Origin: an uncultured Planctomycetaceae bacterium
GTDB taxonomy: Bacteria > Planctomycetota > Planctomycetia > Pirellulales > UBA1268
Direction: 5' to 3'
Length of the DNA: 35,999 nucleotides
Assembly: GCA_903917235.1 (NCBI GenBank)
Contig: CAIWZS010000247.1
Span: forward strand, 1-35,999
In this document: one piece after another, positions 17,614-28,984 of the stretch
How positions within the stretch are numbered: the first letter of the stretch is position 1
Layout: each line of letters opens with the position of its first letter
Program-made: the position numbers and the translations under genes
The notes under the pieces: model-generated
What the model was told of the DNA's origin: nothing
The model's input: the letters and a program-made list of their open reading frames with translations, nothing else
Databases searched by the model: none

Positions 17614-17826
17614 CTCGGCATCCGCGCCTTCGCTTCGGAGGCCCGCGAGCCGGCGGAGGTCGCGCCCCGTCGGGTGGCTTCACCGGAGGCCGGTGTGCTG
17701 CTCTCCGTGTTCGGAAGCTGCCGGTGGTGTTGAGATGGCGGCACGACGCCCATCCCCGCGCCGACGAGCGCGACGTCATGATCGCCTGGCCGGGGTAGAC
17801 TGTGGCGATCGGGCAAGGTGCCGGTG

Positions 17827-20800
17827 ATGAAGAACAACGCCGTCTGTCTTCCGTGGATCACCCTCTCCACGCTCCTGGTCGTGGGCTCGGCGCAGGCTCC
17901 GGCTGCCGACCCGGCCCTCGATCACTTCGAGTCGCGGATTCGGCCGCTCCTCCTCGAGCGGTGCCAGGGATGCCACTCGGGTGCGACCGGCAAGACCAGC
18001 GGCGGGCTCGCCCTCGATACACGTGCAGGCTGGCTGAAGGGGAGCGATTCCGGACCAGTGATCGTGCCCGGCGATCCTGACGCCAGCCTCCTCGTGGCGG
18101 CCATCCGCTCCGGTGCGGACGGCGCGAGGATGCCACCGGAGGACCATGGCGGACCGCTCGCGCAGCGCGACGTCGATGCGGTGGTCGCCTGGATCGCCGC
18201 CGGTGCGCCCGATCCCCGCGAAGGGTCCGCCTCGCTCGGCGGGATGACGCCTCAGGAGGCCCGCGGGTGGTGGGCGTTCCAGCCGCTCGTCGCCGTCGTG
18301 CCTCCCGATGTGAGCGACGCCGGGTGGCCCCGCGGCGACATCGATCGATTCGTCCGAAAAGCGCAGGAAATCCGCGGCATCGAGCCGCTTGAGGATGCCG
18401 ACAGGCGGACGCTCCTTCGCCGGGCGACGTTCGATCTCACGGGCCTGCCACCCACACCGGAGGAGATCGCGGACTTTCTTGCCGACGGCTCGCCCGACGC
18501 GTTCTCCCGCGTCGTGGATCGCTTGCTCGACTCACCGGCGTACGGGGAGCGATGGGGGCGGCACTGGCTCGACGTCGCCCGCTACGCCGACACTGCAGGC
18601 GACGGCGCCGACTATCCGGTGCGGGAGGCGGGCCGCTATCGCGACTGGGTCGTCGCCGCCCTCAACGCTGACCAGCCGTTCGACGAGTTCGTCCGCGACC
18701 AGATCGCCGGCGACATCCGTGCGGCCTCGGGACCAGCCGAGGACTATGCCAGCCGCGTCACGGCCACCGGTTTCCTTGCCATCGGCAAGCGATACGGCTA
18801 CGCCCCCAAGCCCACCTACCAGCATCTCGATTTCGCGGACACGATCGACTCGCTCGGCCGCGCGCTGCTCGGCTTGTCGCTCGGCTGCGCCCGCTGCCAT
18901 GACCACAAGTACGACCCGGTCACGATGGCGGACTATTACGGCCTCTACGGCATCATGCAGAGTTCGAAGTGGGCCTTTCCGGGCGGCGAGGAACACAAGC
19001 GTCCCGCCGACTTCGTGCCTCTCGTGCCGGCCGCAGAGGCGGCGCGTCTCGACGCCGAGCACGCCACCCGACTTCGTGCGGTTGACACCGAATTGGCCGC
19101 CGCCCAGATCGAGCGCGCGCGGCTCGACCCGAACTGGTGGGCTGGTGGAGTCGACCTCGCTTTCGAGGCCCAGAAACCCGGTTCGCAGCCCGCGGCAGCG
19201 TGGCTCGGTATGGGTCCGAACGTCGTGGTGGCCGAGGCACAGAGCCCGTTCACCCACATTCACCCCGCGGGCACGCGCGGGGTGCGGATGGGGACGGGCA
19301 AGCCCAACGAGGGTGTCCGACACGTCTTCGCCCAGCCACTGCGGACCCGCCCCGGCGGGCGAATCCATCTGGCGATCGACTTCCGCACGGTCGCCCCGGC
19401 AGAGCACGGCGGAGCCTACCGGTTCTATGTCGGCCGTGGCGTCGTCGAGTCACTCGCGCTCGAGTGCAGCGTCAGTGCCCGGGAGTTCGCGGTGCGCGGT
19501 GGCGGCGAGTGGAGGGTTGTCCGATCGCTGGAGCCGGGCACGTGGTACACGCTCGCCTGCACGATCGATGGCGACCACCGCACGATCTCGGGAACGGTGG
19601 GCACCTCCGACGACCGCTCGACGTTCGCCGACATTCCGGTTGCGGCGGCATGGGATGGCGTCGTCGACACGTTCATCTGCGACGGCATCGGCCACGTCGC
19701 CGGCCCATCCCCCGCGCGGGACCTCGACAACCTCGCGATCCAAGAGGAACCCTTCGCCCCCGTGGGCACGGCGGTGAACCGTCCCGCCGCCCCCGCCGAC
19801 GCGACCACGCGGATCACCGGAGTCGATGCCCGCATCGCGGAACTGAAGCAGTCGCGCGAGTCGCTCGTTGCCGCGCCCCCCTATCCCGTCGCATACGGTG
19901 TCAGCGAGGGCCGGGCCGGCCCGGCTCGGATCCAGAAACGCGGCGAACCTCACCTGCAGGGGGACGAGGTGCCGCGCCGCTGGATCGACGTGCTCGGCGG
20001 CGATTCGCTCCCAGCCGAGGGGGCCGGCAGCGGCCGGTTGCAGCTGGCCGATTGGGTGACCCGCTCATCCGCGCCGCTCGTCGCCCGTGTCTTTGTCAAT
20101 CGTGTCTGGCAGTGGCACTTCGGCCGAGGCATCGTGCCGACGCCGAGCGACTTCGGCAACCGCGGTGAGCCGCCCTCGCACCCCGAACTCCTCGAATGGC
20201 TGGCGCACGAGTTCGTGGCCTCCGGCTGGCGACTCAAACCGCTCCACCGCCGGATCATGCTCTCGAGGACCTATCAGCTCTCGGGCGGCTCGGACGCGGA
20301 GATCGAGGCGGTCGACCCGGAGTCCGTCTGGCTCTGGCGATACGTCCGTCGCCGCCTCGACGCCGAGTCGATCCGTGACGCGATGCTTTTCGTTTCGGGC
20401 CAACTCGACCGGTCGGTGCCGGATTGCCATCCGTTCCCCGACGTGGCGACGTGGGGATTCACCATCCACAAGCCCTTCCACGCGGAGTACGACTCGAATC
20501 ACCGCAGCCTGTACCTGATGGTGCAGCGAAACCGCCGCCATCCCTATCTGGCTCTCTTCGACGCGGCGGACCCCAACCAGAGCATCGACCGCCGCCTGAC
20601 CACGACGACGCCCACGCAGGCCCTCTACCTCATGAATTCGCCATTCGTCCACCGCCAAGCCGAAGCCTTCGCCGCCCGTCTCGACGCAACGGGCGACGCG
20701 GAACCGCGGCGGATCGAGCGCGGCGTCGAAATGGCATCGGGGTTTCGGCCCGATGCAGCGGATCGCGATCAGTGCGCGGCGTTCCTCGCGTCCTATCGGG

Positions 20801-20907
20801 AGGGACTCGTCGCGCGTGGCAGCCCGACGGATCAGGCGGATGCCGAGGCGTGGGCGGCGCTGTGCAGGGTGCTCCTCACCGACAATGCCTTCCTGAGCGT
20901 GGACTGA
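17827..20907 (+). CDS. PSD1-type planctomycete cytochrome c / DUF1549 / DUF1553 protein with LamG-like insert (alternative GTG start 17818)
   Basis: Signal peptide; RPLLLERCQGCHSG (CxxCH haem motif); FDLTGLPPTPEEIADFL (DUF1549); CARCHDHKYDPVTMADYYGLYGI; RVFVNRVWQWHFGRGIVPTPSDFGNRGEPPSHPELLEWLA (DUF1553). Confidence 0.95.
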   Translation: MKNNAVCLPWITLSTLLVVGSAQAPAADPALDHFESRIRPLLLERCQGCHSGATGKTSGGLALDTRAGWLKGSDSGPVIVPGDPDASLLVAAIRSGADGARMPPEDHGGPLAQRDVDAVVAWIAAGAPDPREGSASLGGMTPQEARGWWAFQPLVAVVPPDVSDAGWPRGDIDRFVRKAQEIRGIEPLEDADRRTLLRRATFDLTGLPPTPEEIADFLADGSPDAFSRVVDRLLDSPAYGERWGRHWLDVARYADTAGDGADYPVREAGRYRDWVVAALNADQPFDEFVRDQIAGDIRAASGPAEDYASRVTATGFLAIGKRYGYAPKPTYQHLDFADTIDSLGRALLGLSLGCARCHDHKYDPVTMADYYGLYGIMQSSKWAFPGGEEHKRPADFVPLVPAAEAARLDAEHATRLRAVDTELAAAQIERARLDPNWWAGGVDLAFEAQKPGSQPAAAWLGMGPNVVVAEAQSPFTHIHPAGTRGVRMGTGKPNEGVRHVFAQPLRTRPGGRIHLAIDFRTVAPAEHGGAYRFYVGRGVVESLALECSVSAREFAVRGGGEWRVVRSLEPGTWYTLACTIDGDHRTISGTVGTSDDRSTFADIPVAAAWDGVVDTFICDGIGHVAGPSPARDLDNLAIQEEPFAPVGTAVNRPAAPADATTRITGVDARIAELKQSRESLVAAPPYPVAYGVSEGRAGPARIQKRGEPHLQGDEVPRRWIDVLGGDSLPAEGAGSGRLQLADWVTRSSAPLVARVFVNRVWQWHFGRGIVPTPSDFGNRGEPPSHPELLEWLAHEFVASGWRLKPLHRRIMLSRTYQLSGGSDAEIEAVDPESVWLWRYVRRRLDAESIRDAMLFVSGQLDRSVPDCHPFPDVATWGFTIHKPFHAEYDSNHRSLYLMVQRNRRHPYLALFDAADPNQSIDRRLTTTTPTQALYLMNSPFVHRQAEAFAARLDATGDAEPRRIERGVEMASGFRPDAADRDQCAAFLASYREGLVARGSPTDQADAEAWAALCRVLLTDNAFLSVD

Positions 20908-20908
20908 C

Positions 20909-22303
20909 ATGCATCCGGGCCCGCCCCTCTCACGTCGTGAATGGCTGCAGCGAGCGCACGGTGGCTGCGGTGCGCTGGCGCTTGCGGCCCTGTTGCGGGA
21001 CGAGGCTGCCGCACGCGATCCGCTGGCAGCGCACCCCGGTCACCATCCGGCCAGGGCTGACGCGGTGATTTTTCTGTTCGCCACCGGCGGCGTGTCGCAC
21101 GTCGATACGTTCGACCACAAGCCGCTCCTCGATCGCGATCATGGCAAGACCATCACCGCCTCGCGCTGGCTGAATCAGTCGGGTGCCTACGAGCGGTTCC
21201 TGATCAGGTCACGCTGGGGGTTTCGGCGTCACGGCTCGAGCGGCACGTGGGTCAGCGAACTGTTTCCCCACGTCGCGGGCGTCGTGGACGATCTCTGCTT
21301 GCTCAACGCGATGCACTGCGACAGCGACGGACACGACAAAGCCACTCTCGCCGCTCACACCGGCTCGGCCCAGTTCGCGCGGCCGAGTCTGGGATCGTGG
21401 GTGAGTTATGGCCTGGGAAGCGAGAATGCCAACCTGCCGTCCTTCCTCGTGCTGGCGCCGGCAGCCCCCTACGCCGGGGCACAGACCTGGGGCAGCGATT
21501 TCCTGCCCGCCTGCCACCAGGGCACCCACGTGGTGCCTGGTCCGGAGCCCCTGGCCAACGTGAGGCCGCGGGTCGCGGCGGCCGACATGCAGGCCCTGGA
21601 ACTGGATCTCCTCGCCCGGCGCAATCGTCGGCACCGCGAGCGCGCCGGCGCCGACGCTGGGCTCGATGCGCGAATCCGCTCGTTCGAGACGGCCTTCGGG
21701 ATGCAGCGCGCGGCCCCGGAAGCGTTCGATTGCTCGGGCGAGACCGCGGAGACACTCGCCCTCTATGGCGTCGAACCGGGCTCCACGGCGGGCTTCGGCT
21801 GGCAGTGCTTGATGGCCAGGCGGCTCGTCGAGCGGGGCGTCCGCTGCGTCGAACTCATCGACGTCGGTTCGAGCAACAACTGGGACTCCCACGCCACCAT
21901 GACCGACCACGAGCGGCTGGCCGGGAACGTCGATCGGCCGATCGCCGCGCTCGTCACCGACCTGAAGCGGCGCGGGATACTCGAGCGGACACTCGTGGTG
22001 TGGACCACCGAGTTCGGACGCACCCCGTTCAACCAGACCCGTGATCATGCGGGCCGCGAGCATCACAACCTCTGCTTCACCTCATGGTTGGCCGGGGGCG
22101 GCGTCCGCGCCGGCCTCGTGCATGGCCGGTCCGACGATCACGGGATTCTGCCCGTCGAGGGGGCCGTGCACACGCACGATCTCCATGCGACGATACTGCA
22201 TCAACTGGGAATCGACCACGAACGTCTCACCTTCCGCCACGCCGGGCGTGACTTTCGTCTCACCGACGTGGCCGGCCGGGTCGTCCGCGAGATCCTCGCC
22301 TGA
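20909..22303 (+). CDS. DUF1501 family protein
   Basis: SRREWLQRAHGGCGALALAALL (Tat-like leader), VIFLFATGGVSHVDTFDHKPLL, ...TLVVWTTEFGRTPFNQTRDHAGREHHNLCFTSWLAGGGVRAG; starts 1 nt after the PSD1 stop. Confidence 0.95.
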   Translation: MHPGPPLSRREWLQRAHGGCGALALAALLRDEAAARDPLAAHPGHHPARADAVIFLFATGGVSHVDTFDHKPLLDRDHGKTITASRWLNQSGAYERFLIRSRWGFRRHGSSGTWVSELFPHVAGVVDDLCLLNAMHCDSDGHDKATLAAHTGSAQFARPSLGSWVSYGLGSENANLPSFLVLAPAAPYAGAQTWGSDFLPACHQGTHVVPGPEPLANVRPRVAAADMQALELDLLARRNRRHRERAGADAGLDARIRSFETAFGMQRAAPEAFDCSGETAETLALYGVEPGSTAGFGWQCLMARRLVERGVRCVELIDVGSSNNWDSHATMTDHERLAGNVDRPIAALVTDLKRRGILERTLVVWTTEFGRTPFNQTRDHAGREHHNLCFTSWLAGGGVRAGLVHGRSDDHGILPVEGAVHTHDLHATILHQLGIDHERLTFRHAGRDFRLTDVAGRVVREILA

Positions 22304-22386
22304 TCGCACGGCCGGGGCGGATCGGTCGCCCCTCGACACGCTGGCGTTTGCGGAAATCCGATCGGCCGCCATATCCTGCGTCGCCG

Positions 22387-24168
22387 ATGGCAGGAGATCG
22401 GACCGGCGACGTCTTCTCTCGGAGGGTCGGGCGCGTGCGGAACATTCATGGCTGGCTCGTCATTGCAGCGATCGTCCTTCCACAAGGTTCCGGTTTCGCC
22501 GACTCCGACTTTCAGGCCCTCACCGCCGACATCATCGCCAGCCACCTGCAGGCGAGGCCGATCCAAGCCGTGAAGTACGGCATCCATGAGCACGATGGCC
22601 GCTATATCGTGCCCGATCGCGAGATGCTGGCCCGGGAAAGCGCGCGATTCGCCCGGTTTCTCGAGGCCCTCGACAGGGTCGACCGCGCGCGACTCACGGC
22701 TTCGGAGCAGGCTGACTGGCGGATTCTCAGGCAAACGCTGGCGAAGGATCGGTGGGAGCTGGAAGTCCAGCGGCAGCCGTGGCGTGACCCGTTGTTTTAC
22801 ACGAGGAACCTCGACGTCAGCGTCTACCTCAAGAGGGACTTCAAGCCGCTTCACGAACGGGTTAGGGACATGGCCGCGATTCTCCGGCACGTGCCGGCGA
22901 CGTTGGCCGCAGCCCGCGACAATCTCGATCTCGTGCTGGCGAAGCCGGTCGTGGAAAGCGGGATCAAGTCGGCGCAGGGCATGGCCAGTTTTTTGGAGAA
23001 GGATCTGGCCGACGAAGCCGGAAAGATCGGCGATGGTCCGATCCTGGATGAGTTTCGGCGGGTGAATACGATCGCGGCCGCGGAGTTTCGGTCGTTCGTC
23101 GCATGGCTCACCCAGGCCCGGCTCCCCACGGCGGATCAGTCGTACGCGCTCGGTGCGGCGGCGTTCGCCGAGATGCTGCGAGCCGATGACGTCGAGATGT
23201 CGCCCGCCGACGTGCTGGAACTGGGCCTCGGTGAACTGAAGCGGGAACAGGCGCGGTTCGCGGCCGCTGCCGCGGAGATCGATCCCACGGCCAGTGCCGT
23301 CGATACCTACCGGGCGATCCAGCGGGAGCATCCGACCGCCGAGGGCCTGTTGCCCGAGGCGCGCAAGAACGTCGAGCTGATCCGCGCGTTTCTCGTCGAC
23401 AGGAACATCGTCACCATCCCGAGCGAAGTCAGGCCGATCATCGCGGAAACACTGCCACCGTTTCGCGCCACGAGTTTCGCCTCGATGAGCACGCCGGGGC
23501 CGTTCGAAAAGAAGGCGACGGAGGCGTACTACTACATCACGCCGGTCGATGCCACGTGGTCGCCGAAGCAGCAGGAGGAATGGCTGACGGCCTACAACTA
23601 CTACACGACCGACGTGCTCACGATCCACGAGGCGTATCCGGGGCACTACCTGCAGTTTCTTGCCCTGAACGCATCGCCGGCGAGCGATGCCGCCAAGTTG
23701 TTCCACACCTACGCCTTCGTCGAGGGATGGGCGCACTACGCCGAGCAGATGCTGATCGAAGAGGGCTTCGCCCAGCCGACGGACGCCGCCACAGCGTCGA
23801 AGGAGGAGCGCGTTCGGGCCGCTAAATATCGGCTCGCGCAGTCCGGCGAAGCCCTGCTGCGGATCTGCCGGTTGTGCTGCTCGGTGAGGATGCACACGGA
23901 GAACATGTCCCTCGACGAGGCGACGCGATTCTTCATGGCAAACTGCCACTACGAGCTGCAGCCGGCCCGGCAGGAGGCGACCCGCGGCACGTTCGATCCC
24001 GGCTATCTCTACTACACCCTGGGCAAACTGCAGATCGTCAAGCTCCGCGAGGAGTGGCGCGAGCAGGAGGGGGCGCGCTTCACCCTGCAGCGGTTTCACG
24101 ACGAGTTTCTCAGCCATGGGGCGCCGCCGATCGCCCTGCTGCGCGACGTGATGCTGAAGCGTCGGTAA
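22387..24168 (+). CDS. DUF885 family (zincin-like) secreted peptidase
   Basis: Hydrophobic leader; ARPIQAVKYGIHEHDGRY; LTIHEAYPGHYLQFLALN (HExxxGH-type motif); FVEGWAHYAEQMLIEEGF; YTLGKLQIVKLREEWR. Confidence 0.92.
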   Translation: MAGDRTGDVFSRRVGRVRNIHGWLVIAAIVLPQGSGFADSDFQALTADIIASHLQARPIQAVKYGIHEHDGRYIVPDREMLARESARFARFLEALDRVDRARLTASEQADWRILRQTLAKDRWELEVQRQPWRDPLFYTRNLDVSVYLKRDFKPLHERVRDMAAILRHVPATLAAARDNLDLVLAKPVVESGIKSAQGMASFLEKDLADEAGKIGDGPILDEFRRVNTIAAAEFRSFVAWLTQARLPTADQSYALGAAAFAEMLRADDVEMSPADVLELGLGELKREQARFAAAAAEIDPTASAVDTYRAIQREHPTAEGLLPEARKNVELIRAFLVDRNIVTIPSEVRPIIAETLPPFRATSFASMSTPGPFEKKATEAYYYITPVDATWSPKQQEEWLTAYNYYTTDVLTIHEAYPGHYLQFLALNASPASDAAKLFHTYAFVEGWAHYAEQMLIEEGFAQPTDAATASKEERVRAAKYRLAQSGEALLRICRLCCSVRMHTENMSLDEATRFFMANCHYELQPARQEATRGTFDPGYLYYTLGKLQIVKLREEWREQEGARFTLQRFHDEFLSHGAPPIALLRDVMLKRR

Positions 24169-24249: not shown

Positions 24250-24495
24250 TCAGTCGCGAGGGGCCGCGATCGGAGGCGGCAGGTGGGCCGAAAGACGTCG
24301 GACCACGTCGGCATTCCCGGGCCGGGCCGCGACGTTCACCGTCTCGTGCGGATCATCCCGCTCGTCGTAGAGTTCGCGCTCGACGATCGTGCCGTCGCTG
24401 CGGTCCCGCCACAGCGTCAGCCGCCAGCGGGCGTCACGAATGCTGGAACCCATGAGTGGCCGGCCGCCGGTGTGCCCCGCCGCCGACCGCTCGTC
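24250..24495 (-). pseudogene. C-terminal remnant of an iduronate-2-sulfatase-like sulfatase
   Basis: In-frame minus-strand read after a stop: DEERSAAGHTGGRPLMGSSIRDARWRLTLWRDRSDGTIVERELYDERDDPHETVNVAARPGNADVVRRLSAHLPPP. Typical sulfatase C-terminus (xELYDxxxDPxExxNVA) with no catalytic part adjacent. Confidence 0.65.
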
Positions 24496-24630: not shown

Positions 24631-25752
24631 ATGCGCGGCACGAAGGTCGTCGTCATCGGTGCCGGTGTCATCGGGCTCACGCATGCCGTGACCGCCCGGG
24701 AAGCCGGCTGCGCGGTGACGGTGCTCGAACGCGACGGCCGCGCCCTGGGGGCGTCGGTTCGGAATTTCGGGACGCTCTGGCCCATCGGCTGCGTGCCGGG
24801 AGTGGAACGTGAGCAGGCGCTGCGGGGTGTCCGCCGCTGGCAGGAGATCGCCGGTGTGGCCAGGTTCTGGCACGATCCCTCGGGCTCCGTCAGCCTCGCC
24901 TATCGCGCGGAGGCCTGGCAGGTGCTGCAGGAGTTCGCCGGCACGAGCGCGGACTTCGAACTGCTCGACGCGGCGGCGTGCGTCCGCCGCTTCCCGGCCG
25001 TGAATCCCACCGGGCTGCGCGGCGGACTGTTCAGCCCGGCGGAGACGCTGCTGCACTCGCCCACGGCGATCCCGGCACTCGCGGAGCACGTCCGTCGGCT
25101 CGGGGTGACGGTGCACGTCGGCACGCCGGTGGCGCGGGTGCTCGCCGACCACGTGGAGACCAGCGATGGCCGACGCTTCGAGTTCGACCGGCTCGTGATC
25201 GCGGCAGGAGAGGAGATGCGGCTCTTCTTTCCGGAGGCCGTCGCCGCGGCGCAGATCCAGCCCTGCAGGCTGCAGATGATGCGGACGGTGCCGCAGCCGG
25301 CCGGCTTCACCCTCGGGGCGATCCTCGTCGGTGACCTGACCCTCTGTCACTATCCGGCCTTTCGCGACTGCCCGAGCATGCCGCGGCTGCGGGCCCGGCT
25401 GCAGGCGGAATTGCCCGAGCATCACCGCTGGGGCATTCACGTCATCGCGGCCCAGCACGCCGACGGCAGCCTCACCCTCGGCGACTCGCATGAGTATGGT
25501 CTCGACCTGCCGCCCGACAGCCGCCCCGAGGTGGACGACATGATCCTCGCCTCCCTGCGCGAGTTCGCGGTCGTTCCGGATCTGCGGATCGCGGCCCGCT
25601 GGCAGGGTGTCTACCTGAAGAGCACCGTAGGCCGGACGCAGGTCGTGCTCCAGCCCCGCGAACGTGTCACCATGGTCACGGCGATGGGGGGCCTCGGCAT
25701 GACGCTGAGCTGGGGGCTCGCCGAACGAACCATCTCCTCGTGGCGGGCATGA
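24631..25752 (+). CDS. FAD-dependent oxidoreductase of the phosphonate-associated type (TIGR03364-like)
   Basis: GAGVIGLTHAVTAREAGCAVTVLERD (FAD-binding), ASVRNFGTLWPIG, WGIHVIAAQHADGSLTLGDSHEYG, GGLGMTLSWGLAERT. Immediately precedes phnX. Confidence 0.88.
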   Translation: MRGTKVVVIGAGVIGLTHAVTAREAGCAVTVLERDGRALGASVRNFGTLWPIGCVPGVEREQALRGVRRWQEIAGVARFWHDPSGSVSLAYRAEAWQVLQEFAGTSADFELLDAAACVRRFPAVNPTGLRGGLFSPAETLLHSPTAIPALAEHVRRLGVTVHVGTPVARVLADHVETSDGRRFEFDRLVIAAGEEMRLFFPEAVAAAQIQPCRLQMMRTVPQPAGFTLGAILVGDLTLCHYPAFRDCPSMPRLRARLQAELPEHHRWGIHVIAAQHADGSLTLGDSHEYGLDLPPDSRPEVDDMILASLREFAVVPDLRIAARWQGVYLKSTVGRTQVVLQPRERVTMVTAMGGLGMTLSWGLAERTISSWRA

Positions 25753-26550
25753 ATGTCGATGGGTGAGCCACTGCAACTCGTCGTCTTCGATTGGGCCGGC
25801 ACGCTGCTCGACTTCGGCTGCCGCGGGCCACTGAACGCCTTCCACGACGCCTTCCGTGCCGCGGGCCTGCCGATCACCGACGCGATCGCCCGCAGGCCGA
25901 TGGGCGCCCACAAGCGGGATCACGTGCGGGAGATCCTCCACGACGTCGATGTCGTCGCCCGCGTCCGCACGTCCCTGCGACGCGAGCCCGACGAGCAGCT
26001 CGTGGAGACGATCTACGAGGATTTCGCCCGGCGGCTGCCCGCGATGCTCCCCTTGCATGCCGACCCGATCCCGGGCGCCGTCGAAACACTCGCCTGGCTG
26101 CGTCGCTCGGGCATCCACGTCGGCAGCACGACGGGCTACACGCGCGACATGATGGACGTGCTCGAGCCGTTGGCCCGGGCCGCCGGCATCGCGCCCGACG
26201 TGGTGATCTGCGCCGACGAGGTGCCGCAGGCCCGGCCCGCCCCGTGGGCCTGCTTCCGAATCGCCGAACGGCTCGGCGTCTATCCGCTGTCGCGGGCCGT
26301 CAAGGTCGGTGACACGCCGGCCGACATGGCGGAGGGCCGAAACGCGGGCATGCGCTGCGTCGGGCTCAGCGAATGTGGCAACGAAGTGGGACTCGGCAGA
26401 GAGGCGGTCGAGGCGCTCGACCAGGCGGAGCGGACGCGGCTGGTCGCCGAGGCTGAGCGACGGCTGCGCGCGGCCGGTGCCCATGCGGTGCTTCGCAGCG
26501 TCGCCGATCTCCCGGCGTGGATCGAGTCACAGGCGGCACGAGGGCCATGA
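25753..26550 (+). CDS. phnX: Phosphonoacetaldehyde hydrolase
   Basis: LVVFDWAGTLLDFG (HAD nucleophile), RRPMGAHKRDHVREIL (Schiff-base Lys), DPIPGAVETLAWLR, GSTTGYTRDMMDVL, GRPAPW-like ARPAPWACFRIAERLGVYP, KVGDTPADMAEGRNAGM. Confidence 0.95.
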   Translation: MSMGEPLQLVVFDWAGTLLDFGCRGPLNAFHDAFRAAGLPITDAIARRPMGAHKRDHVREILHDVDVVARVRTSLRREPDEQLVETIYEDFARRLPAMLPLHADPIPGAVETLAWLRRSGIHVGSTTGYTRDMMDVLEPLARAAGIAPDVVICADEVPQARPAPWACFRIAERLGVYPLSRAVKVGDTPADMAEGRNAGMRCVGLSECGNEVGLGREAVEALDQAERTRLVAEAERRLRAAGAHAVLRSVADLPAWIESQAARGP

Positions 26551-27589
26551 ATCCTGTGAACGCTTCACACGCCCGGGTCGCCATCTTCGACGGCCCCGGG
26601 AGACCGTTTCGCCTCGCGGATCTGGAGATCCCGTCGCGGCTCGACCCGGGCGAACTGGTCGTCGAACTCTCGCTCGCGACGATCTGCGGCTCCGATCTGC
26701 ACACGCATGCCGGAACCCGCCGGGAGCCGACTCCCTGCGTGCTCGGCCACGAGGGTGTGGGGACGGTCGTGGCGGCGGCCGCCGACCGCACGACCTGGCT
26801 TGGAAAGCGGGTGACGTGGAGCTCGACCGACTCCTGTGGCCGTTGCCCCGCATGCACGACGTGGAGACTGCCGCAGAAGTGCGCTCGTGTCTTCAAGTAC
26901 GGCCACGTGTCCCTGAACGAGGCCCGCGGCCTGCACGGCAGTTACGCCTCCCATCTCGTCATCCGCGGCGGAACGCACCTCGTGGAGGTGCCGGACCACG
27001 TGCCGGACGCCGTGGCGGCATCGCTCAACTGCTCGCTGGCCACCATGGCCAATGTCACCGAACGGCTGCCCGATCCGTGCGCGGTGGCCGTGGTTCAGGG
27101 GGCGGGTCTGCTCGGGCTCCATGGCTGCGGTCTGCTCCGTGCCGCTGGCGTCGGTCGCGTGATCGTGGTCGATCCCGATGAAGGCCGCCTGGCCCGGGTG
27201 GCCGAGTTCGGGGGGGAACCGGCCCGAAGCCACGAGGTGCCCGATCGCGCGGCCGACGTGGTCATCGAGGTCGCCGGTGCCGCCGCCGTGGTTCCCGAGG
27301 GCCTGCGGATGCTCAGGCCCGGGGGCATTACCTGTTCGTCGGCATGGTGCATCCACGATCGCTGCTCGACCTCACCGGCGAGGCGGTCATCCGCGGCTGC
27401 ATCAGCCTGCGGGGTTTTCACAACTACGCACCCCGCCACCTCGACCAGGCGGTGTCCTTTGCCGGACACTCCACACTGCCGTGGAGCTCGCTGGTGAGTC
27501 CGCCACTTCCCCTCGCTTCGCTCGACGAGGCCTTCGCGCTCGCGGCGACGCGACGGTGGCCCCGGGTGGCCGTCTCGACACGGGCCTGA
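26547..27589 (+). CDS. Phosphonate-catabolism-associated zinc alcohol dehydrogenase (TIGR03366-like), disrupted by an apparent 1-nt deletion near 27321-27325
   Basis: TICGSDLHTHAG, VLGHEGVGTVV, structural zinc cysteines CGRCPACTTWRLPQKC, Rossmann region VVQGAGLLGLHGCGLLRAAGVGRVIVVD. The continuation HYLFVGMVHPRSLLDLTGEAVIRGCISLRGFHNYAPRHLDQAVSF is in another frame. Overlaps the phnX stop (ATGA). Confidence 0.85.
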
Positions 27590-27676
27590 CACGGCCGTCC
27601 TTTTCCGCTCCGAGGCCATCGGCATGGCGCATCACACCCTCGAGACGATGGTCGCCACCTGCCGCCGAGGGAATCC

Positions 27677-28984
27677 ATGACGGACGGCACGAGGCTCGGG
27701 CGCCTCATGGCGCGGCCCTGGTTCTTCACGCTCTGGACCGTGGCGGCCACCTTTGGCTGCTACGCCTGCATGTACGGCTTTCGAAAGCCCTTGACGGCGG
27801 CCGGATTCGGCGAGCCCGAAACCAAGGCGTGGCTGGTCACCGCACAGGTGCTCGGGTACGCGGTCTCCAAGTTCCTCGGCATCAAGGTGATCGCCGAAAT
27901 GTCGCCGGCGAGCCGATCACGGACCCTGCTGGCGATCATCGGCTGTGCGCAGGCGATGCTGCTCGTGTTCGCGCTGGCCCCGGCCCCCCTCGATGCGGCC
28001 TGCCTCTTCGGCAACGGCCTCGCGCTCGGGTTGGTCTTCGGGCTCGTCCTCGGATTCGTGGAGGGACGGCAGCTCACCGAGCTGTTCGTGGCGGGGCTGT
28101 GCGCGAGTTTCATTCTCGCCGACGGCGTGGCGAAGACGATCGGCGCCGCACTGCTGCACCGCGGTGTCGCCGAACGATGGATGCCCTTCACGGCGGGCAT
28201 GCTCTGCCTCCCGCCCCTGATCGCCTTCGTGTGGATGCTCGGCCGGATTCCGCCCCCGTCACGGCACGACGAGCGTGCACGGTCCCATCGCCCGCCCATG
28301 ACCGTGGCGGAGCGTGTCGGTCTCTTGCAGCGGCACGGTGTCGGCCTGCTGGCGATCGTCGTCGCCTACCTCCTGATCACCATCCTGCGCAGCATTCGCG
28401 GCGACTTCGCGCCCGAGATCTGGGCCGGGATGGGGATCCAGCCGCAGGCGGCCGTCTTCACCCAGTCGGAACTCTGGGTGGCTCTGCTCGTCGTGGCCGC
28501 CAACGGGGCCCTCGTGCTGGTGAAGGACAATCGCCGCGCGTTCTTCATCGGGCTGCTGCTGTCCGGTGGCGGCATGGTGCTGGGGCTGGTCTCGCTCGGG
28601 GCCTATCGCGTCGGCTTCCTCTCGCCGTTCACCTTCATGGTCGTGCTGGGAGCCGGCCTGTACGTGCCCTATGTGGCGGTGCATACGACGGTCTTCGAAC
28701 GGCTCATCGGCCTCACGCGCGAGCGGGCCAATCTGGGGTTTCTCATCTACGTGGCCGACGCCTCCGGGTATCTCGGCTACGGCGCGGTGATGTCGGGCCG
28801 CAGCCTGTTTCCCGCCCACGAGCAGTTCCTCGGCTTCTTCATCGGCACGTCGGCGGTCCTGCTCGGGGCCGCGTTCGCGTGCGTGTGCGTCGCCATGGGG
28901 ATCTACGCCCACCGCATCGGGCTCCTGACCAAGACGAGCGCGTCGTGCGGCCTCGTGCTGCTCCTCCTCGCTCGCGGCGTGTGA
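27677..28984 (+). CDS. MFS-type transporter, DUF5690-like
   Basis: 435 aa with ~12 hydrophobic segments; MARPWFFTLWTVAATFGCYACMYGFRKPLTAAGF; ITILRSIRGDFAPEIWAGMG; FGxxYVADASGYLGYG-like region. Confidence 0.8.
   Translation: MTDGTRLGRLMARPWFFTLWTVAATFGCYACMYGFRKPLTAAGFGEPETKAWLVTAQVLGYAVSKFLGIKVIAEMSPASRSRTLLAIIGCAQAMLLVFALAPAPLDAACLFGNGLALGLVFGLVLGFVEGRQLTELFVAGLCASFILADGVAKTIGAALLHRGVAERWMPFTAGMLCLPPLIAFVWMLGRIPPPSRHDERARSHRPPMTVAERVGLLQRHGVGLLAIVVAYLLITILRSIRGDFAPEIWAGMGIQPQAAVFTQSELWVALLVVAANGALVLVKDNRRAFFIGLLLSGGGMVLGLVSLGAYRVGFLSPFTFMVVLGAGLYVPYVAVHTTVFERLIGLTRERANLGFLIYVADASGYLGYGAVMSGRSLFPAHEQFLGFFIGTSAVLLGAAFACVCVAMGIYAHRIGLLTKTSASCGLVLLLLARGV

Follow-up and report, generated by a model that had tools for sequence, protein, structure and literature searches.

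How phosphonoacetaldehyde (PAA), the compound cleaved by the hydrolase PhnX, might be supplied where the usual aminotransferase PhnW is missing is the question raised by four genes at positions 24631 to 28984 of contig CAIWZS010000247.1, from the assembly of an uncultured Planctomycetaceae bacterium (GCA_903917235.1). The window, meaning the whole stretch of DNA analyzed, comprises 35,999 nucleotides. The four genes, encoding the flavin oxidoreductase PbfD, PhnX, the dehydrogenase HpnZ (26547 to 27589), and a DUF5690 membrane protein, all lie on the forward strand. It is quite likely that they form a phosphonatase-type operon centered on PAA in which PbfD takes the place of PhnW. A transaminase-independent phosphonate route, proposed as a candidate in the initial annotation, is well supported and is the best reading of the locus, with PhnW absent genome-wide; it is not new, having been published for Mariniblastus fucicola. 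The features of the operon are as follows.

24631 to 25752, forward strand: pbfD (TIGR03364, HpnW_proposed), a predicted flavin adenine dinucleotide (FAD)-dependent amine oxidoreductase of 373 amino acids, a divergent member of its family.
25753 to 26550, forward strand: phnX, phosphonoacetaldehyde hydrolase, 265 amino acids, intact.
26547 to 27320, forward strand: 5' part of hpnZ (TIGR03366), a predicted zinc-dependent alcohol dehydrogenase, matching profile positions 2 to 243.
27323 to 27589, forward strand: 3' part of hpnZ in another reading frame, matching TIGR03366 positions 247 to 314.
27677 to 28984, forward strand: DUF5690 (PF18943) membrane protein, 435 amino acids, a predicted phosphonate permease of the organophosphate:phosphate antiporter (OPA) type, resembling GlpT and G6PT.

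The first three genes had been described as packed head to tail, and their junctions are exactly as described: the ATG of phnX (25753) directly follows the pbfD stop codon (25750 to 25752), and an ATGA at 26547 to 26550 overlaps the phnX stop with the dehydrogenase ATG. Promoter and terminator scans at the operon gave no result. Profile searches bore out two of the three proposed family assignments in full. PbfD passed TIGR03364 (349 bits against a cut-off of 285) and also matched PF01266, and PhnX passed TIGR01422 (303 bits against 220). PhnX retains 30 of 33 conserved columns, including D13, K54, and D187; the catalytic residues of this family comprise an aspartate nucleophile and a Schiff-base lysine. 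The third assignment stood in part, as TIGR03366 was matched by two separate pieces in two frames (199 and 56 bits against a cut-off of 328).

As had been reported for the window, no phnW was found there, nor was one found elsewhere in the assembly (4.67 Mb in 553 contigs, estimated to be 93% complete). Profile searches of the assembly also did not find the carbon-phosphorus (C-P) lyase component PhnJ, and the phosphoenolpyruvate mutase profile recovered only a distant relative below the cut-off; the operon therefore appears to be dedicated to catabolism. On these grounds, readings of the locus as phosphonate biosynthesis or as part of a C-P lyase pathway were rejected.

The distribution of these genes was surveyed across the order in 247 genomes, which are related to each other. 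PbfD was present in 65 genomes, PhnX in 75, and PhnW in 33 (32 above the family cut-off and 1 in which PhnW is split across contigs). PbfD and PhnX occurred together in 54 of the 247 (Fisher test, P ~ 4e-26), mostly adjacent, and the order-wide co-occurrence and synteny statistics led to the rejection of chance adjacency of the operon genes. Among the 75 genomes with PhnX, 51 had PbfD only, 16 had PhnW only, 3 had both, and 5 had neither (Fisher test, P ~ 2e-9). The alternation recurs within the genus of the window genome, where one genome (G188) has PhnX and a confirmed PhnW without PbfD and two (G000, which is the window genome, and G093) have PhnX and PbfD without PhnW. Functional replacement of PhnW by PbfD would look like this, the pattern being a correlation among related genomes and not proof. 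Because PhnW is absent genome-wide and genomes with PhnX rarely hold both PbfD and PhnW, a transaminase-free route is well supported.

A conventional PhnW or another transaminase for 2-aminoethylphosphonate (AEP) might nonetheless supply the PAA, with PbfD only adding N-methyl-AEP as a substrate. The assembly is incomplete, and both PhnW and PbfD are present in four genomes (G114, G144, G197, and G100); this alternative is nevertheless very unlikely, since no PhnW-like match above 21 bits was found and 61 of the 65 genomes with PbfD lack PhnW, many of these genomes being at least 95% complete.

Under the transaminase-independent reading, the DUF5690 protein would import an AEP-like compound, and PbfD would use FAD to oxidize its amine (the substrate is probably AEP, N-methyl-AEP, or both); the resulting imine would hydrolyze to PAA. 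This step, shown by others for relatives of PbfD, would replace that of PhnW. PhnX, by family assignment, would then cleave PAA to acetaldehyde and phosphate. HpnZ, now frame-broken in the window, was probably once a second feeder that made PAA by oxidizing an alcohol analogue, 2-hydroxyethylphosphonate being the likeliest. The analysis directly shows the identities of the genes, the lack of PhnW in this assembly, the gene distributions, the synteny, the fold matches, and the residue alignments, whereas the reactions and transport activities ascribed here to this organism are all predicted from sequence and genomic context. The PhnX step and the PAA intermediate are shared with the PhnW-PhnX phosphonatase pathway, from which the window operon differs in lacking PhnW.

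The closest precedent is the planctomycete M. fucicola, from which PbfD2 has been purified; it oxidizes N-methyl-AEP and, four-fold more slowly, AEP to PAA (Zangelmi et al. 2023, PMC10590968). The same study noted the apparent lack of phnW in the M. fucicola genome and named PbfD2 plus PhnX as a pathway (PMC10590968). Both planctomycetes have pbfD beside phnX and no phnW in the genome. The M. fucicola enzyme was assayed, whereas the window PbfD is known by its sequence and is without several conserved residues; besides pbfD and phnX, the window operon includes hpnZ (broken) and the DUF5690 gene. The earlier suggestion that the flavoenzyme itself produces PAA is thus right in kind and weaker for this particular protein, as its divergence indicates.

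In the window PbfD, the FAD-binding GxGxxG motif is present (G10, G12, and G15), the closest folds to the predicted model (predicted local distance difference test [pLDDT] score, 91.5) were those of glycine and sarcosine oxidases, and the 373-codon frame is intact with a coding-like codon-position composition (GC content at third codon positions [GC3], 0.88). When columns identical in at least 90% of 43 relatives were taken as conserved, PbfD kept 67 of 91 and altered 24, while 42 of the 43 relatives differed in 0 to 7 of them; only the G181 protein changes more. Seven of the changes fall at positions identical in 43 of 43 relatives, including the arginine of the LTLRHY motif (R239C). No relative with more than 45% identity was found in a genus or family search. 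In some other genomes (G013, G053, G100, G162, and G181, the last at locus L058), PbfD is paired with a PhnX-like hydrolase instead of PhnX; in G181 this hydrolase matches TIGR03351, and the very divergent PbfD there perhaps has another substrate.

Several observations weigh against assigning PAA formation to this protein and against the route as a whole. PbfD carries Q54C, S66G, E95A, P143S, and R239C at residues conserved in nearly all relatives, and its branch is long (2.31, compared to a median end branch of 0.22), with no resolved placement in the tree. PbfD was found in only 2 of the 14 genus members included in the order-wide sample, and a genus search found it in 8 of 22. The absence of PhnW rests on an assembly that is 93% complete in 553 contigs, in which the best PhnW profile match scored 21 bits against a cut-off of 401, with no search of it made for PhnA, PbfA, or class III AEP transaminases. 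Because of the changed residues and the long branch, the activity of the M. fucicola enzyme is not transferable to the window PbfD, whose substrate may be a non-phosphonate amine.

PbfD could have come to act on another aminophosphonate or amine, or could have lost its function recently, in an operon that is being dismantled. The number of altered columns is the highest among the 44 sequences except for the one paired with a TIGR03351 hydrolase, the PbfD branch is long, hpnZ is frame-broken, and the operon adjoins a sulfatase-like remnant. Its gene order is also unlike that of family members in which hpnZ-DUF5690 is divergent from pbfD-phnX (G093, G041, G125, G169, and G176; loci L042 to L046). 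Against this, the FAD motif, the 67 conserved columns, the open frame, and the coding-like composition persist, phnX is intact, the confident PbfD model is amine oxidase-like, and the lack of stop codons despite such divergence points to selection along most of the branch. This alternative is unlikely. We read the window PbfD as a probably functional enzyme, either shifted or recently relaxed, whose substrate is uncertain and should not be assumed.

The third gene had been annotated as a dehydrogenase, and both of its parts match TIGR03366 (HpnZ_proposed), with the catalytic (C47, H68, and E69) and structural (C97, C100, C103, and C112) zinc ligands retained. It is not one open frame, which the initial annotation had missed: the frame shifts in a run of G near 27321 to 27325. 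Intact copies are present in relatives. Read as one stretch, the window hpnZ product scored about 201 bits, compared to 300 to 425 bits across 47 further genomes from the order. The codon-position composition of the 3' part is still coding-like (GC3, 0.81), and since this and the zinc ligands persist, the break is probably recent or an assembly error.

What HpnZ might do was examined through its neighbors. In three genomes, HpnZ was present and neither PhnW nor PbfD was found. It lies beside PhnX in G222 and with PhnX and a GlpT-type transporter in G078 (a genome with 8% contamination), and in G223 (83% complete) it is found with a GlpT-type transporter, the phosphonoacetate hydrolase PhnA, and an aldehyde dehydrogenase that scored far under the PhnY cut-off (251 against 636 bits). 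HpnZ is the only visible candidate PAA source in these loci. HpnZ, as an alcohol dehydrogenase adjoining PhnX in many loci, could instead detoxify or use the acetaldehyde that PhnX produces, or reduce PAA, without feeding PAA at all. This is doubtful, as HpnZ also occurs in PhnA clusters that lack PhnX (L085 and L089), where no acetaldehyde is expected, and is paired with a transporter, as expected of an uptake-and-oxidize module (of the order's 48 HpnZ genes, 29 adjoin DUF5690 and 8 others a GlpT/PgtP-type protein). Because HpnZ is the sole visible PAA source in the three loci and no acetaldehyde is expected in PhnA clusters, the simplest reading of sequence and genomic context suggests that HpnZ is a 2-hydroxyethylphosphonate dehydrogenase yielding PAA. 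For PbfF, which is unrelated, such a function has been weighed and ruled out (PMC12366243). A literature search turned up neither a paper describing a 2-hydroxyethylphosphonate dehydrogenase nor one testing the function of the TIGR03366 family. The reading is limited by one genome without PhnX, PbfD, or PhnW (G059, locus L082), in which DUF5690 and hpnZ form a lone divergent pair with no known partner.

The fourth gene had been called a major-facilitator-type transporter, and that fold was recovered in the predicted model (pLDDT, 91.5); the protein matched PF18943 at 407 bits and so belongs to DUF5690, a family to which no function has been assigned and of which the literature searched makes no mention. 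All of the top ten of 798 PDB fold matches were to G6PT (SLC37A4), an OPA protein, while a sequence search against PDB gave no match. In MAFFT alignments, run in three modes, the equivalents of GlpT Y38, Y42, R45, K46, Y76, K80, and R269 do not vary among 23 DUF5690 proteins, which come from three phyla; the equivalent of GlpT His165 is not kept. The residue argument draws on these alignments and on the fold search. R45, K46, K80, and R269 are the phosphate-binding residues of GlpT; its substrate is engaged chiefly by R45, with contributions from K46, R269, and K80 (PMC4598623).

DUF5690 is also linked to phosphonate genes by position. It was present in 62 of the 65 PbfD genomes of the order, and 62 of 105 copies had a phosphonate gene no more than 8 kb away, where about 1 was expected. 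The five plasmid copies found in other phyla all adjoin phosphonate genes: DUF5690-TIGR03364-PhnX on a Novosphingobium plasmid, DUF5690 alongside HpnZ and a PhnX-like hydrolase on a Chondrinema plasmid, and DUF5690-phnX-phnW in the gut Bacteroidales Parabacteroides, Bacteroides, and Phocaeicola (L104, L105, and L108; records labeled as plasmids). The association spans Planctomycetota, Alphaproteobacteria, and gut Bacteroides.

DUF5690 might carry something else, such as another organic acid or phosphate for export, and be linked to phosphonate genes by chance or regulation. No NCBIfam match was obtained, hhalign comparison with GlpT gave only weak alignments in the wrong register, and 43 of the 105 copies are not near the marker genes searched, all of which tells against a role in phosphonate uptake. 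Such other cargo is quite unlikely, given the synteny in three phyla, the OPA fold, the invariant phosphate-binding residues, and the eight loci in which a GlpT-type protein takes the place of DUF5690 beside HpnZ. From the model, the conserved residues, and genomic context, DUF5690 is a probable phosphonate permease of the OPA type. A GlpT-like AEP permease, AepP, has been described (PMC8316502). AepP, which serves AEP catabolism, and DUF5690 are both major-facilitator proteins with the GlpT phosphate-binding residues; DUF5690 differs in forming a separate Pfam family, in having no detectable GlpT-profile match, and in lacking the His165 equivalent. Taken jointly, the proposals that DUF5690 is a new family of OPA-type phosphonate permeases shared by several phyla (gut Bacteroides among them) and that HpnZ is the missing dehydrogenase for 2-hydroxyethylphosphonate, an abundant marine phosphonate, feeding PAA without C-P lyase, are tentative, and that both hold is possible rather than probable.

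Other genes near these loci were also noted. In 11 loci (L046, L047, L051 to L055, L060, L084, L093, and L099), a gene of the Phn-HD oxygenase type lies between or beside the genes for PbfD, HpnZ, and DUF5690; the two members tested belong to TIGR03276. No such gene was observed in the window operon. Upstream of the operon are a planctomycete-typical pair of PSCyt1/DUF1549/DUF1553 (also with PSCyt2 and PSD1) and DUF1501 genes (17818 to 22303) and then a gene for a DUF885 protein (22348 to 24168); the planctomycete-type domains make a planctomycete origin of the window a reasonable reading. Beside the operon, an open stretch on the reverse strand (24250 to 24495) ends in ELYDERDDPHETVNVAARPGNADVVRRL, and no intact gene surrounds it; we take this end to resemble a sulfatase C terminus, probably a sulfatase remnant and possibly a rearrangement junction.

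The pathway is already known, and this copy mainly widens its range. The survey shows a swap between PhnW and PbfD within one genus. Of more use are the genes beside it. In high-molecular-weight marine dissolved organic matter, as much as 20% of the phosphorus is in 2-hydroxyethylphosphonate and methylphosphonate (PMC9381506), and HpnZ is a testable candidate for oxidation of the former. DUF5690, a family without an assigned function, can now be tested as a phosphonate importer.

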